DNA of 64,000 nucleotides from positions 186,001-250,000 of the forward strand of contig NZ_CP036276.1 of assembly GCF_007747995.1 (NCBI RefSeq), written 5' to 3'. The DNA comes from Symmachiella dynata. Its GTDB lineage: Bacteria > Planctomycetota > Planctomycetia > Planctomycetales > Planctomycetaceae. The notes under the pieces are model-generated. The model saw only the letters and a program-made list of their open reading frames with translations, was not told the DNA's origin and did no database searches. Of this stretch, positions 35,641 to 51,743 are shown piece after piece; the stretch's first letter is position 1, and every line of letters starts with the position of its first letter. Position numbers and translations under genes: made by a program.

Positions 35641-35687
<47 letters not shown>

Positions 35688-38641: not shown

Positions 38642-38836
38642 ATGTATGTCACCTCCCTGCACCTCGTATTAGATGAGCGTTTCTCAGTGAAAAAGCTCAG
38701 TGAATACGTCAAGACTGCAAAGGCTGACGAAATCCTCTCTGTATCCCCCATTACCCTTCGGACTTGGGCAGGGATGAGGGGGAATTCCAACGCAACGAAA
38801 CTTTGCAAATGGTTACCGACTTATCAAGAGGACTGA
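38642..38836 (+). pseudogene. Possible fragment of a MerR/excisionase-type HTH protein
   Basis: The 64-codon frame contains 'YVKTAKADEILSVSPITLRTWAGMRGNS', which resembles the helix-turn-helix of excisionase/MerR-like proteins ('TAKAAEILGVSPxTLRxW'). After 'WAGMRG' the usual 'wing' sequence is lost. The gene lies 80 bases before the methyltransferase start. It may be a decayed regulator or an N-terminal DNA-binding segment severed from the methyltransferase. The similarity is from memory of the motif only. Confidence 0.35.
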
Positions 38837-38916
38837 TTTGGAAGCGTAATTGAAGAAAGTTGCCAAGCCGATCCGATGCAAGAGGCACGGCAAATGATTC
38901 CGTCCGGAGTAGAAGA

Positions 38917-40227
38917 TTGAAAAAGTTTGCCCCGTATGTGCTGAAGCTCGCAAACCTCGTTGAACAATCGTCTGATCGAAGACGGTCGTATCATCAGAAG
39001 TCCATTGCACCTGCATTGGACGGCGAGCCTTCTCGCGTACTCCGAGATTTGGTTGACCTTGAGACACGCAGAGAGCATGGTGCTTTCTTTTCTGGTTCGG
39101 AACTTGGCAAGTCTTTGAGGAAAAGATGGGCGCAGCAGATTTCGCCACATTCCGTCATCTGCGACCCTGCATGTGGCAGTGGTGATCTGCTCCTCGCGAT
39201 CACTACTCTACTTCCAATTAAAGAAGGGCTAAGGGAGACGCTTGACGCTTGGGGAACCAATCTGTACGGAGTCGATATTCACAAGGAGTTTGTCGATTCC
39301 ACGAAGTACAGACTTGCGCTGCAGGCAATCGCATTAGGAGCAACACGAGAAAGAATCAACCGTGATGATGTTCTGAAATATTTTCCAGGTGTTCGGCTGG
39401 GCAATGGTCTCGAAGCTTCCGAAGAACTCGCGAAAGCCACACATGTTGTCACCAATCCTCCCTTCTCTCCAACTCAGGCGACTAAAGACTGCACGTGGAC
39501 GCGTGGCCTTGTCAATTCAGCAGCTCTTTTCATGGAGTCAATCTCCAAGCACGCGACATCAGGCGCACGGATCTGGGCTATTCTTCCAGACGTCCTTCGA
39601 AGCGGGACTCGCTACGACAAGTGGCGAAAACTGATCGCCTCACGACTCCGAGATATCCGAGTTACACCGATTGGACAGTTTTCGCGCCATGCTGACGTTG
39701 ACGTATTCGTAGTTGAAGGGATCGTTCGTGCTCGCTCCAATCGGAATGTTGGTGAATGCAGCTCCTTTCTGGTCGAAAAACCTCAGGATGCGTCGCAGAT
39801 TTTGGGAGAACTATTCACTGTTAATGTCGGCTCAGTTGTACCACATCGCCATCCAGATGAAGGAGAGCAAGCTCCATATCTCACACCACACAACTGCCCA
39901 GCTTGGAAGCAAGTGACCACCATCGATGATTTTCGTGGGTTTCGTGGAAGGTTATTCAAGCCACCACTTGTCGTGCTTCGTCGTACGTCGCGTTCCGACG
40001 ACTCCTACCGGGCAATCGGAACACTGGTCACGGGGAAGCGAGCTGTTGCGATCGAAAACCATTTGTTGGTGCTGACTCCCAACTCACGCATGATCGCAGA
40101 TTGCAAAAGACTACTACAGGTTCTGAAGTCACAAGCCACGAACGATTGGCTGAATCGGAGGATCTGTTGCCGTCATCTAACCGTCTCAGCGGTTAAGTCA
40201 ATCCCTTGGAACCTGGAAACGAAATGA
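38917..40227 (+). CDS. N6-adenine DNA methyltransferase
   Basis: I place the start at the TTG at 38917 because GGAG lies 7 bases upstream; an upstream TTG at 38860 is in frame but has a weaker site. The 436-residue product has the AdoMet motif I 'CDPACGSGDLL' (about 82-92) and the catalytic NPPF (about 180-183), which mark N6-adenine methylation of DNA. 'HGAFFSGSELGKSLRKRW' before motif I is typical of type I/IIG methylases. The C-terminal 150 residues probably recognise the target sequence. No specificity or restriction subunit follows. Instead the gene is coupled by an ATGA overlap to a GHKL ATPase gene, so methylation may mark self DNA for a non-classical system. Confidence 0.88.
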   Translation: MKKFAPYVLKLANLVEQSSDRRRSYHQKSIAPALDGEPSRVLRDLVDLETRREHGAFFSGSELGKSLRKRWAQQISPHSVICDPACGSGDLLLAITTLLPIKEGLRETLDAWGTNLYGVDIHKEFVDSTKYRLALQAIALGATRERINRDDVLKYFPGVRLGNGLEASEELAKATHVVTNPPFSPTQATKDCTWTRGLVNSAALFMESISKHATSGARIWAILPDVLRSGTRYDKWRKLIASRLRDIRVTPIGQFSRHADVDVFVVEGIVRARSNRNVGECSSFLVEKPQDASQILGELFTVNVGSVVPHRHPDEGEQAPYLTPHNCPAWKQVTTIDDFRGFRGRLFKPPLVVLRRTSRSDDSYRAIGTLVTGKRAVAIENHLLVLTPNSRMIADCKRLLQVLKSQATNDWLNRRICCRHLTVSAVKSIPWNLETK

Positions 40228-42290
40228 CCATTGCACGGATTCGATTTGCGCCAGACATTCTCCGACGATTGGGAGAGGAATTAAATCCTCACCCCGCCGT
40301 TGGAATCATTGAACTCGTGAAGAATGCGTATGACGCAGATGCTCGTAAGTGCACTGTCACCTTAACCGACGTGGACGACGCAGGAGGCCAAGTCGAAATA
40401 TCGGACAATGGTGATGGCATGACGGTTGAGCAGATCAAGCACGGATGGCTTGTACTCGGTCATTCGCAGAAGGAGAAAAACCACCGAACACGGCTTGGCC
40501 GCATTCCTGCTGGTAGTAAGGGGCTTGGCCGACTTGCCGCGCTGCGACTTGGACGGTTTGCTCACTTGGAAACGCGCCCACGATCTCGCCGTGACGCTGC
40601 CTACGAACTATTGATTGATTGGAAGCTCTTTGATACCGCTTCGCTGATTGATGATGTGGACTTAGCAATTGATGTTCGCGCTCGCAAAAAAGGCACGTCT
40701 AGCGGTACAACTATCCGCCTCGACAAACAGCGTGACAGAATTGGAAGGCTGGAAGTCAAACGCCTTGCGCGGGCTATGCTGCTATTGGCGGACCCTTTTG
40801 GGGAAAACACCGAAGGCTTTCAGCCAAAACTCGTAGCGCCCGAGTTTTCAGACCTAGAAGCATTGGTTAAGCGACGTTATTTCGATCATGCGTCCTATCA
40901 TCTCGTAGCTAGGTTGAACAAGAAGGGATTGGCGACCGCGCAGCTCCATGATGCACGCGGAGAAATCCTTTTCTCGTCGAAGCACACCGACTTGTTTCCG
41001 AAAAATGACGAACAGACGCTCGAGTGCCCTCCTGTCGAATTCGAGTTATGGACGTTCTTGCTCAACGGTGTGACATTTGCCCCGCTTCCAGTAACGATCC
41101 AGGAAGTAAAAGCGTGGCTTGCTGAATTTGGTGGCGTTCACATATACCAGAACGGTTTGAGGGTCGCTCCCTATGGTGACGCAGGTCATGACTGGCTCTC
41201 GTTGAACGTGGCGAGAGCACGAAGTCCTGAAGAACGCCCTTCAACCAACAACTCGATCGGCAGAGTTCGACTTGAGGACTCTGAGGAGATCTTGGTCCAG
41301 AAGACGGACCGGTCTGGTTTCATTGAAAGCCATGCATTTCACGAAATACGGCGATTTGCCCAGGCTGCTCTAGACTGGATGGCGGATCGCCGTATGGAAC
41401 TCGCGGAAAAGAGGCGAGCAAAAGCAAGAACCAGTGCGCCAAAACGTACAAGCAAGACTAAGAAACGACTTGATGAGACGATCGAGGCAGCTCCACCCAA
41501 ACTCCGAGAACAACTTCGTGAAGCCGCGGACCGCCATGACAAGTCTCGGGACAAAGAGGTGGAAGGACTGAAGAAAGAAGTCCAGTTGTATCGAACGTTG
41601 AGCACCGCGGGAATTACTGCTGCAACCTTCGCCCACGAGTCAACAGGAAACCCCCTCAAGGTTATTAGAGCATCAATCGGGACGATCGAAAGACGAGCGA
41701 AAGAACTATTCGGCAAAGATTACAAAAAGAAGCTGGATTCAGCGGTTGAACGCGTGAAGTCATCCGTAGAATCCTTGGGCGTGCTCGACACTGTGACGCT
41801 AAGCCTCCTTAGTCATGAGAAGCGAAGATTAGCAAAGGTTGATGTCCACCAGGTTATCAACGGAGTCCTTCAAATGTTTCACCCTTTTCTTGCAGTGCGA
41901 CAGGTCATCGTCGACTTGGACCTGACCGAGGGTTCGCCCTGGCTCCACGGTAGTGAGGCTGCGATTGAATCCATCATAACGAACCTCGTCAACAATAGCC
42001 TCGTAGCACTTGAAGAAAAGGCTCCCACTGACCGCAAGATTCGAGTCAGCACAACCGTGAATGAGGATGTCTTGCGGCTAGTGGTAATCGACAGCGGCGA
42101 TGGGATCAAAGATATTCGTGCCTCTGACATTTGGTTGCCGGGGAAGTCGACTCGAAAGAACGGTACAGGACTCGGACTTACAATTGTCAAAGACACCGTA
42201 CTCGACCTAGGCGGAAACGTTGGCGTGTTGGAGTTAAGTCCACTGGGTGGAGCTGAGATTTTTGTGGAACTTCCGATCGTGGGGGCCTGA
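40224..42290 (+). CDS. Dual-GHKL protein: MORC/Hsp90-like ATPase plus histidine-kinase-like module
   Basis: The start at 40224 overlaps the methyltransferase stop (ATGA). The 688-residue soluble protein has two GHKL ATP-binding domains. The first (about 1-330) is Hsp90/MutL/MORC-like: N box 'ELVKNAYDAD' (Glu30, Asn34, Asp37), 'DNGDGM' (61-66) and the lid 'GSKGLGR' (97-103). A Lys/Arg/Glu-rich coiled coil (about 390-460) follows. The second half resembles a sensor kinase: an H-box-like 'FAHESTGNPL' with His near 471, then N box 'NLVNNSL' (about 588-594), 'DSGDGI' and 'GTGLGLTIV' (about 647-655). There are no membrane segments or sensor domain, so the N-terminal ATPase is probably the sensor. 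The adjacent receiver gene suggests phosphotransfer. Confidence 0.88.
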   Translation: MTIARIRFAPDILRRLGEELNPHPAVGIIELVKNAYDADARKCTVTLTDVDDAGGQVEISDNGDGMTVEQIKHGWLVLGHSQKEKNHRTRLGRIPAGSKGLGRLAALRLGRFAHLETRPRSRRDAAYELLIDWKLFDTASLIDDVDLAIDVRARKKGTSSGTTIRLDKQRDRIGRLEVKRLARAMLLLADPFGENTEGFQPKLVAPEFSDLEALVKRRYFDHASYHLVARLNKKGLATAQLHDARGEILFSSKHTDLFPKNDEQTLECPPVEFELWTFLLNGVTFAPLPVTIQEVKAWLAEFGGVHIYQNGLRVAPYGDAGHDWLSLNVARARSPEERPSTNNSIGRVRLEDSEEILVQKTDRSGFIESHAFHEIRRFAQAALDWMADRRMELAEKRRAKARTSAPKRTSKTKKRLDETIEAAPPKLREQLREAADRHDKSRDKEVEGLKKEVQLYRTLSTAGITAATFAHESTGNPLKVIRASIGTIERRAKELFGKDYKKKLDSAVERVKSSVESLGVLDTVTLSLLSHEKRRLAKVDVHQVINGVLQMFHPFLAVRQVIVDLDLTEGSPWLHGSEAAIESIITNLVNNSLVALEEKAPTDRKIRVSTTVNEDVLRLVVIDSGDGIKDIRASDIWLPGKSTRKNGTGLGLTIVKDTVLDLGGNVGVLELSPLGGAEIFVELPIVGA

Positions 42291-42292
42291 AG

Positions 42293-42955
42293 ATGCCAAT
42301 GATTATTGATGGCGAAACGCTTTGCAAGATTGCCGTCGTTGATGACGACGAGAATGTGAGAGCGAGTTATGCTGAAGCCCTGGAGGATCTGAGCGTTGAA
42401 CCTGTTGAAATCTTTGGATTGGAAGGCGACGCTCCGACCGCTTGGGATTCATCAATCAAGGGTTGCGATGCAGTTTTGACAGACTTGGTTCTAAAGAGAA
42501 GTGGATATGCTTCTTTCAACGGTGGGACACTTGCAGTTGAATGCAAACGGAGAAGGATTCCGGCGATTCTGTGTACTTCGTACACTGATGTGAGTCATGA
42601 ACTCCTTCGCTACGAGCGTCGCCATGTTGCTGCGATCTTGTGTCAAGCGCAGTTTGACCTCGATCCAATTCGAGAAGGATTGCGGCGTTCAATCGGCGAA
42701 CTTGAAGGACGATTCATTCCCGAACGTCGCCCTTGGAGAACTCAGGTTGAGATTGTCGATGTGCCTTCAGGTGCTGACTACGTGTGGGTCATCGTCATGG
42801 GGCGCAGCCCCAGCGAGAAGGTTAAGGTATATACGAGCGAATTGCCTGCGAAAGAAGGAAGCACTGTCCATCCAGGAATGATCCTCCATGCGATGGTTAA
42901 CACCGGCGCTAAGTTTGCGCAGGACCTCTACTTTGACGAGTGGGAAACTGAGTAG
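42293..42955 (+). CDS. Receiver-domain protein with an unknown C-terminal domain
   Basis: The ATG is 2 bases after the ATPase stop; a second ATG 6 bases later is possible. The 220-residue product has an N-terminal receiver domain: the acidic pair in 'AVVDDDENV' (Asp17-Asp18), the phospho-acceptor Asp64 in 'VLTDLVLK', and Thr95 in 'ILCTSYTD'. The conserved Lys of the fifth strand appears missing ('AAILCQAQFD'), so the phosphoryl switch may be atypical. Residues 145-220 form a small beta-rich domain ('TQVEIVDVPSGADYVWVIV') and not a DNA-binding domain. The protein probably relays a signal from the GHKL kinase to a partner, perhaps the downstream hydrolase, rather than to promoters. Confidence 0.8.
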   Translation: MPMIIDGETLCKIAVVDDDENVRASYAEALEDLSVEPVEIFGLEGDAPTAWDSSIKGCDAVLTDLVLKRSGYASFNGGTLAVECKRRRIPAILCTSYTDVSHELLRYERRHVAAILCQAQFDLDPIREGLRRSIGELEGRFIPERRPWRTQVEIVDVPSGADYVWVIVMGRSPSEKVKVYTSELPAKEGSTVHPGMILHAMVNTGAKFAQDLYFDEWETE

Positions 42956-42967
42956 GAGGGGCCTTTC

Positions 42968-43966
42968 ATGGGTTTTTTTCCCGGTAACTATGTGGCGATA
43001 TTGGATGTCGGTCACGGCAACTGCTGTGTGATCAGCGATAATGGAGTCACGAGTGTCATCGATACAGGTCTTGGGACCTCGCTTCTCGAATTCTTGAGTG
43101 AACGCGGAATAACCACTCTTGATATGGTCTTACTTTCACACGCCGATCAGGACCACATATCAGGACTGATCCACTTGTTGGCGTCGACTGAGTTCTCCAT
43201 TGGATGTGTTCGTCTGAACACGGATTCTGCCAAGGGCACAAAGCTCTGGAAGAACCTCGTCTACGAATTAGAAACTCAAGAGTCCAAGGGCAAACTCAAT
43301 TGGGAAGTACAATTGACGGTTGATTCGGGTGAGGACCTTGCGGTCGGAAACGTGGGGCTTGAGGTTATAGCGCCTGGGAAGGCGTTGGCCGCTTTGGGGC
43401 CTGGCAATAAAACCAAGGATGAACGGAAGATTACGTCGAACTCGGTAAGTGCCGTCATTCTGCTTTCCAAGTCGGAAAAGCCGATTGCTGCTATACCAGG
43501 TGACTTAGACGAACTGGGACTTCAAGACTTGAAACGGCGACTAAATGGACAGAAGCGCATATCACCTGTTCTCGTCTATCCTCACCATGGTGCTTCAAGC
43601 GGTTCCAGTGGATCTGCCCAGTTTGCGATTGAAATCTGTGAACTCTTCAGCCCTAAGGTCGTGATATTCTCAATCGGGCGGGGTTTGCATGGCACGCCAC
43701 GTCCTGAGGTAGTTGACGCAATTCGCAGGAAAGCGGGTAGAGTAAAAATCGCATGCACTCAGTTGTCGGAACACTGCTCAGCAACCGTACCTGCACTCGA
43801 ACCAAGTCACCTCCTACCTGTGTATTCGGAAGGCCGGGGAGATCGCAAGTGCTGCGCCGGGACGATGGTGATTGATCTCGATGATGATGGAGAGCTTAGG
43901 CCCGCTGATGCAGACCACGGAGATTTCATCGACAAACATGCTGTAACCGCGCTCTGTCGGCTATAG
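42968..43966 (+). CDS. ComEC/Rec2-type metallo-beta-lactamase fold hydrolase
   Basis: GGAGGGG precedes the ATG at 42968. The 332-residue product is a soluble MBL-fold enzyme of the ComEC C-terminal type: 'ILDVGHGNCCVI', the metal site 'LLSHADQDHISG' (H-x-D-x-D-H), 'NSVSAVILL', 'IPGDLDE' and 'VYPHHGASSGSS'. ComEC-type MBL domains are DNA or nucleotide phosphodiesterases; free-standing ones are often effectors in mobile elements. All metal ligands appear intact. It is the last gene of the four-gene operon and the best candidate for its effector, which remains inference. Confidence 0.87.
   Translation: MGFFPGNYVAILDVGHGNCCVISDNGVTSVIDTGLGTSLLEFLSERGITTLDMVLLSHADQDHISGLIHLLASTEFSIGCVRLNTDSAKGTKLWKNLVYELETQESKGKLNWEVQLTVDSGEDLAVGNVGLEVIAPGKALAALGPGNKTKDERKITSNSVSAVILLSKSEKPIAAIPGDLDELGLQDLKRRLNGQKRISPVLVYPHHGASSGSSGSAQFAIEICELFSPKVVIFSIGRGLHGTPRPEVVDAIRRKAGRVKIACTQLSEHCSATVPALEPSHLLPVYSEGRGDRKCCAGTMVIDLDDDGELRPADADHGDFIDKHAVTALCRL

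Positions 43967-50398: not shown

Positions 50399-51743
<1,345 letters not shown>

Follow-up and report, generated by a model that had tools for sequence, protein, structure and literature searches.

A mobile four-gene operon linking a DNA methyltransferase, a MORC-like histidine kinase, a receiver and a ComEC-type hydrolase: a candidate phosphorelay-switched restriction system

The planctomycete Symmachiella dynata carries a mobile four-gene operon that may encode restriction-like immunity protected by methylation and switched by a phosphorelay. The genes occupy positions 38917-43966 on the plus strand of the window, the 64,000-nt stretch of contig NZ_CP036276.1 (positions 186,001 to 250,000) analyzed here. 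In order, they encode an N6-adenine DNA methyltransferase, a MORC-like GHKL ATPase fused to a histidine kinase, a response-regulator receiver and a metallo-β-lactamase (MBL)-fold hydrolase of ComEC type (Table 1). Sequence profiles and structure models reveal recognizable domains with intact catalytic residues, tight gene linkage and co-divergence across genomes, a ComEC-type fold, and exchange of the MBL for an HNH-type protein in distant relatives. We consider it moderately probable that the operon performs such immunity, with marking, sensing and cutting assigned to separate proteins. An earlier reading of the window from its letters alone (the original prediction) had described four same-strand genes with an ATGA overlap (40224-40227) between genes 1 and 2, a 2-base gap between genes 2 and 3 and a 12-base gap between genes 3 and 4, forming one operon inside a mobile island; the sequence bears out each of these points.

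Conservation of the four-gene set

The four genes stay together across distant genomes. We collected relatives of gene 2 by tblastn of plasmids, by a scan of 84,980 species genomes and from viral contigs. The best 80 loci of the species-genome scan comprise 31 at 41–56% identity and others at no more than 29%, and the count of close relatives is a lower bound. Plasmids yielded three full-length relatives (41–48% identity), two keeping all four genes and the third keeping three, with an insertion sequence in the MBL gene; viral contigs added three close relatives. Together, the loci fetched with the kinase from plasmids, species genomes and viral contigs form a close set of at least 37. Methyltransferase, kinase, receiver and MBL occur together in 22 of these 37, spanning Planctomycetota, Chloroflexota, Pseudomonadota, Acidobacteriota, Bacteroidota and Actinomycetota plus three viral contigs. 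Among the 22, locus L043 has its methyltransferase on the opposite strand, and L045 has broken methyltransferase and kinase frames. Another 13 loci, all cyanobacterial, carry kinase, receiver and MBL without the family methyltransferase; of the remaining two, the L039 contig ends inside the kinase and L034 lacks the MBL. Junction gaps are 40 bp or shorter in 21 of 22 gene 1-2 pairs, 36 of 36 gene 2-3 pairs and 34 of 35 gene 3-4 pairs. Because the genes are kept together in distant genomes, the arrangement goes beyond chance, and linkage in the 37 close loci rules out a chance neighborhood. The original prediction had called for this comparison across lineages, and its outcome excludes a set confined to a single strain.

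The four proteins also diverge together. In a FastTree phylogeny of 150 kinases, those of the MBL type form one group of 36 rows with full support. Pairwise co-divergence of the four proteins across 22 loci including the window ranged from r 0.56 to 0.81, with kinase and receiver the highest of the six pairs. For each pair, 0 of 2000 permutations reached as high a value, a figure that is not a strict probability since the rows are related.

Few genomes of the window's phylum hold related MBL or methyltransferase genes. An MBL profile matched five of 392 genomes at 1e-30: the window, one genome with a full set, one with a broken MBL and no kinase nearby, and two with weaker MBL genes. These two weaker relatives (L169, L170) adjoin N6 methyltransferase-type proteins of 890–931 residues, a possible two-gene system. 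A methyltransferase profile matched three of 392 at 1e-40: besides the window, it hit that same genome with the full set and a further one in which the methyltransferase gene is close to another kinase-receiver pair. Among viral contigs, the MBL profile found nine loci, one at chance level, and a receiver gene adjoins the MBL in all eight others. Five of the eight carry four genes, one has broken kinase and receiver frames with no methyltransferase seen, and two are cut by contig ends. A search for the receiver in 59 relatives returned the window itself as the only match.

Predicted sensor and relay proteins

Gene 2 joins a MORC-like ATPase to a histidine kinase. Pfam places HATPase_c_3 (2e-19) at the N-terminus of its protein and HATPase_c (1.6e-20) at the C-terminus. 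Against solved structures, the family profile hits MORC2 and MORC3 at residues 27-146 (about 5e-6) and ZraS and FixL histidine kinases at about 435-684 (to 6e-26), and the protein holds a complete DHp plus catalytic kinase module. The predicted dual-GHKL ATPase/kinase is thus confirmed by profile as a MORC-like GHKL domain with a true histidine-kinase module. All 36 homologues keep the N-terminal GHKL motifs (N34, D61, G63, K99) and the kinase motifs (H471, N587, N591, D623, G647-G651), and 35 keep E472. None of the 36 carries the MORC-specific S5 motif GhXhhpXXRhl in its published spacing, as sought with a regular expression that left the polar position unenforced; 26 fit it with one extra residue before the arginine. 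K360 is kept in 35 of 36, and the MORC structure matches, which reach 27-146 only, do not cover S5. N-terminal similarity to the BbrUII/HgiDII enzymes scores 66.8 of 550 bits in NCBIfam, far below cut-off. Some distant family kinases (L048, L068, L073) are directly followed by very large open reading frames (1086–1876 residues) rather than a short receiver gene.

Gene 3 encodes a divergent receiver. Its Pfam Response_reg match is weak (0.026, below cut-off). In the structure model (mean predicted local distance difference test score, pLDDT, 93.2), a receiver fold comes first and a small domain rich in beta strands after it. All Protein Data Bank (PDB) fold matches listed for this model are receivers of response regulators, a few of them in fusion constructs, so that model and fold search uphold the predicted receiver. 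D17, D18 and D64 are kept in 37 of 37 receivers and T/S95 in 36.

Predicted effector and methyltransferase

The MBL protein most closely resembles the nuclease domain of ComEC. It matches Lactamase_B in Pfam (2e-10) and ComEC_Rec2 in NCBIfam (3.7e-13, under the curated cut-off), and ComEC is its best PDB match by profile (5e-21) and by fold (9ic4, 5.6e-15), which favors the nuclease-like MBL hydrolase that had been predicted. The HxDxDH motif, D179, H206 and H207 are kept in 35 of 35 homologues, as are C263, C270, C296 and C330; we treat the cysteine-bearing part as an extension because ComEC similarity stops near residue 249. Published work describes metal-dependent nuclease activity for the MBL domain of ComEC (PMC8579336, PMC12455585). 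In Hachiman and related anti-phage systems, MBL enzymes resembling ComEC reportedly serve as latent DNases that proteolysis releases (PMC12799240).

The effector position appears exchangeable. At 17 distant loci, an HNH-type protein of about 184–259 residues, encoded 621–677 nt after the kinase, takes the place of the MBL, and Pfam found HNH in all seven such proteins scanned. A receiver-like open reading frame lies between kinase and HNH gene in 16 of 17, the filter returning none at L079. Seven of the 17 carry the same methyltransferase family as the window; among the other ten, an N6/Eco57I methyltransferase gene lies alongside in six by Pfam and in three by eye, and L049 is too short to tell. 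By eye, the HNH-type receivers end in an apparent helical stretch rather than a beta-rich domain. Because receiver tail and effector vary together, we propose that the receiver docks on the effector.

One methyltransferase family serves both MBL and HNH types. D102, P103, G106 and NPP[FY] are kept in 23 of 23 aligned homologues, and solved relatives include M.BseCI and EcoKI M. The HNH-linked methyltransferases fall in three places of the tree, but its deep part is poorly supported (12 of 30 branches open); we therefore claim only that the types share one family, not that methyltransferases were exchanged between them. Among viral contigs, the methyltransferase profile found 34 loci, of which five were weak and 29 were retained, several as near-copies. 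Seven of the 29 carry kinase and HNH, five carry kinase and MBL, and 12 by motif plus L184 by eye carry what we take, from their motifs, to be DUF262-like and HEPN-like genes; three of the rest end too close to the gene and one was not placed. At L180, L184-L186, L188-L191, L196-L198, L204 and L206, the methyltransferase gene is convergent to these HEPN-like and DUF262-like genes, apparently another methylation-linked module. When one of the DUF262-like proteins and one of the HNH proteins were searched against the PDB, neither gave a match.

Proposed mechanism

The four proteins may act in sequence. The methyltransferase would mark host DNA at N6-adenine. The MORC-like ATPase of gene 2 would engage invader DNA or a DNA-protein complex, and unmarked DNA would alter its ATP-dependent state. 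This altered state would switch the fused kinase, with phosphorylation of His471 and transfer of the phosphate to Asp64 of the receiver. Finally, the C-terminal domain of the receiver would dock on the MBL and free its DNase activity against the invader. We infer every functional step and the order of the steps, as well as DNA as ligand, invading DNA as target and a receiver that activates rather than restrains the nuclease. A phosphorelay is the more likely trigger here, rather than proteolysis as in Hachiman and its kin.

More tentatively, the operon may represent a class of restriction in which a His-to-Asp phosphorelay joins marking, sensing and cutting. Here MBL and HNH proteins would plug in after one MORC-kinase/receiver core, and the methyltransferase would be a module common even to the unrelated DUF262/HEPN-like loci. 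The cyanobacterial core would have dropped the methyltransferase and would need another cue to tell self from foreign. In classical restriction enzymes a single complex both reads the methyl mark and cuts, whereas here recognition and cutting look split by a relay. If so, a cell could use the relay to amplify or delay restriction or to switch it off, and could swap its nuclease freely; ComEC-type nucleases would come under two-component control. Such an arrangement would also open the question of what bacterial MORC-type ATPases sense, with a bearing on the origin of eukaryotic MORC. The operon is compact and easily cloned.

Weighing the interpretation

Several observations count against phosphorelay-switched restriction. 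The cyanobacterial three-gene form is the main evidence against plain restriction: the family methyltransferase was not found in ten searched genomes of the 13 cyanobacterial loci (best score 47.8 bits versus 564 for the window gene; assembly completeness not given). As neither these loci nor the ten genomes show a family member, the kinase-receiver-MBL core can exist without one. The usual receiver lysine is not conserved, position 117 being K in three and R in four of 37 receivers and position 118 R in 16 and P in 10. Foldseek on the gene 3 model gave no fold assignment for the C-terminal domain (148-219). The next fold match of the MBL after ComEC is a phosphorylcholine esterase, and MBL folds act on many substrates. 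Finally, a PADLOC scan (1e-15) of 206 mechanically picked neighboring open reading frames at 23 methyltransferase-bearing loci did not establish an enrichment of defense genes. The matches listed there include DUF4297-HerA, PDC-S01, PDC-S28, PD-T7-3, Argonaute-linked genes, mad8 and others, mostly one member each. A contrast scan of 110 reading frames at the 14 other close loci listed, among others, kinase-type PD-T4-6 models, HEC-03B and mad6, with two members each, and Pfam on 107 of the 206 returned mostly ordinary genes. The original prediction had asked whether the genes lie near defense genes, and these scans failed to demonstrate it.

These points leave room for other explanations. The operon could be a defense system whose MBL, gated by kinase and receiver, destroys or makes a small molecule or cuts RNA. 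We think this unlikely: MBL enzymes have varied substrates and the lower fold matches here include Apyc1, RNase Z and RNase J alongside the esterase, but the ComEC nuclease domain is nearest by both sequence and fold, and the alternative fourth gene is HNH endonuclease-like. We are just as doubtful of a housekeeping or DNA-uptake regulator, in which the kinase would sense the state of DNA, the ComEC-like enzyme would process DNA in uptake or repair, and defense would be incidental. The cyanobacterial form, lacking the family methyltransferase and lying by eye mostly amid ordinary chromosomal genes, fits such a role. Patchy occurrence in six phyla and in cyanobacteria, on plasmids and in viral contigs, does not, and neither do an MBL family in only those five of 392 phylum genomes, location in an integrative element and a methyltransferase partner in 22 of 37 close loci.

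Addiction-like behavior is known for restriction-modification systems, and residence in an integrative element, plasmids and viral contigs would suit a selfish module: a host that lost the methyltransferase would come under attack from the nuclease, the element would therefore be kept, and phage defense would be secondary. The cyanobacterial forms, which keep the effector without the family methyltransferase, speak against this explanation, and we rate it a little lower than the previous two; it is not exclusive of phosphorelay-switched restriction, and both can hold. Least probable in our judgment is that no phosphorelay operates, both GHKL domains being ATP-driven clamps like those of MutL and MORC and the receiver-like protein a structural adaptor that is never phosphorylated. 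MORC and MutL do act as clamps without phosphotransfer, and the variable receiver lysine and a Response_reg score far below cut-off agree with this. Conservation of H471, E472 and the receiver residues D17, D18, D64 and T/S95, the complete DHp and catalytic module, and a kinase-receiver co-divergence that is the strongest of all pairs argue instead for phosphotransfer.

Relation to known systems

The wider class was already known from sequence. Bellieny-Rabelo et al. (2021; PMC8011034) used sequence analysis to describe a restriction-modification-linked pair of HEF_HK (PF19191) and Response_reg_2 (PF19192). The first resembles a kinase, is cytoplasmic and has the same two GHKL domains; the second is a divergent receiver. 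The pair lies beside restriction-modification genes, and kinship with paraMORC ATPases was proposed. The window operon shares with it an N-terminal HATPase_c_3, a DHp-like region with a histidine, a C-terminal HATPase_c, solubility, an adjacent receiver gene, and nearby DNA methyltransferase and nuclease genes. It differs in having an N6 methyltransferase and a ComEC-type MBL, where that paper stresses C5 methyltransferases, Vsr and HNH; the words "lactamase", "metallo" and "phage" are absent from its main text. PF19191 did not match gene 2 to 0.1, nor the kinases of L002, L009, L012, L014 and L053. That model was also silent in the operon's own genome and in 14 control genomes, with no positive control, so this genome scan is uninformative. 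PF19192 did not match the window receiver to 0.1, and matched one of 98 distant receiver-position proteins. By sequence, the MBL type is a conserved clade of its own with a new effector, outside the 2021 Pfam models. We call the set a variant of the 2021 class with a new effector because the wider class is described, the exact set lacks a published account and both Pfam models missed it. The same genome encodes, at about 7641900-7644500 (L002, L003), a second dual-GHKL kinase (753 residues) with a 384-residue receiver; an apparent C5 methyltransferase end lies upstream, nearer the 2021 type, and neither HEF_HK nor Response_reg_2 matches there.

No named system in PADLOC-DB 2023 or NCBIfam equals the full set. 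Both gave partial matches only, those in NCBIfam under curated cut-offs: the AVAST type 1 (Avs1a) and 6A-MBL equivalogs scored 23 of 420 and 20.3 of 220 bits. Of the MADS set, only mad2 (a methyltransferase model, 2e-13) matched among the four proteins. We found no published account of the four genes and no functional test of the 2021 class in a literature search whose coverage left out most subscription papers and bioRxiv. The claim that no described system has exactly this set holds in the literature searched, PADLOC-DB 2023 and NCBIfam, but it overlooked the wider class of 2021 (PMC8011034). Nor did the original prediction anticipate the cyanobacterial forms that lack the methyltransferase or the exchange of the effector for an HNH protein; overall, its interpretation is partly supported.

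Several systems resemble the operon in part. MORC and paraMORC ATPases linked to restriction-modification (Iyer et al. 2008, PMC2292703) are likewise GHKL ATPases, encoded in mobile operons next to genes for DNA methyltransferases and nucleases; unlike them, the window protein is fused to a full histidine kinase with a receiver next to it, and it and its homologues lack the S5 motif in that paper's spacing. The trypsin-MBL module (HamM and its kin, in Hachiman, AVAST, Lamassu and DRT; PMC12799240) has a ComEC-like MBL that is exchangeable and inactive until triggered, which the MBL of the operon resembles by profile and fold. There a protease activates the nuclease, whereas the window operon has no trypsin-like protease by Pfam and instead has a kinase and receiver. 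As in type II restriction-modification, a DNA methyltransferase gene is present; Pfam found no classical endonuclease domain in the four genes, leaving the ComEC-type MBL as the only nuclease candidate. Detocs also signals from histidine kinase to receiver for defense, with a nucleoside phosphorylase-like effector, no methyltransferase and no MORC-like domain. The window operon likewise pairs a kinase with a receiver and has an MBL at the effector position, with no phosphorylase-type effector by Pfam.

Operon boundaries and the integrative element

The operon lies within an integrative element of 16 kb. Perfect direct repeats of 44 nt, spaced 16,027 bases apart, delimit this element; the right repeat falls within tRNA-Lys, next to an integrase and a primase-polymerase gene. 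The operon has a GC content of 0.515, lower than the 0.565 of the remaining element; the window outside the element has 0.546. The methyltransferase frame is open from 38860 to 40227; the TTG at 38917 is the likely start, because the aligned L010 protein starts at this point and a GGAG precedes it by 7 nt.

Table 1. Features of the operon and its integrative element (window coordinates)
Feature	Coordinates	Strand	Remarks
N6-adenine DNA methyltransferase (gene 1)	38917..40227	+	Pfam N6_Mtase 4.9e-8
MORC-like GHKL ATPase fused to histidine-kinase transmitter (gene 2)	40224..42290	+	HATPase_c_3 and HATPase_c; phospho-acceptor His 471
Response-regulator receiver (gene 3)	42293..42955	+	Receiver at about residues 1-140; beta-rich C-terminal domain 148-219
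ComEC-type MBL-fold hydrolase, predicted DNase effector (gene 4)	42968..43966	+	C-terminal extension with invariant cysteines
Left attachment (att) copy (44-nt direct repeat that exactly matches a segment of the tRNA-Lys gene)	35644..35687	.	
Tyrosine integrase of the element	50399..51709	+	Phage_integrase 2e-7
Right att copy, within tRNA-Lys (51670-51743, minus strand)	51671..51714	.	

Another genome of the genus has a different element at this tRNA-Lys gene (L176, L177); it measures about 37 kb, looks prophage-like by eye, and gave no match to the four genes with five profiles. Near the Burkholderia plasmid copy (L009), at a distance of about 6 kb, a DUF4297-HerA anti-phage pair is annotated. 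Just upstream of the S. dynata operon, a small open reading frame (38642-38839) encodes 64 residues that look excisionase-like or helix-turn-helix-like by eye.

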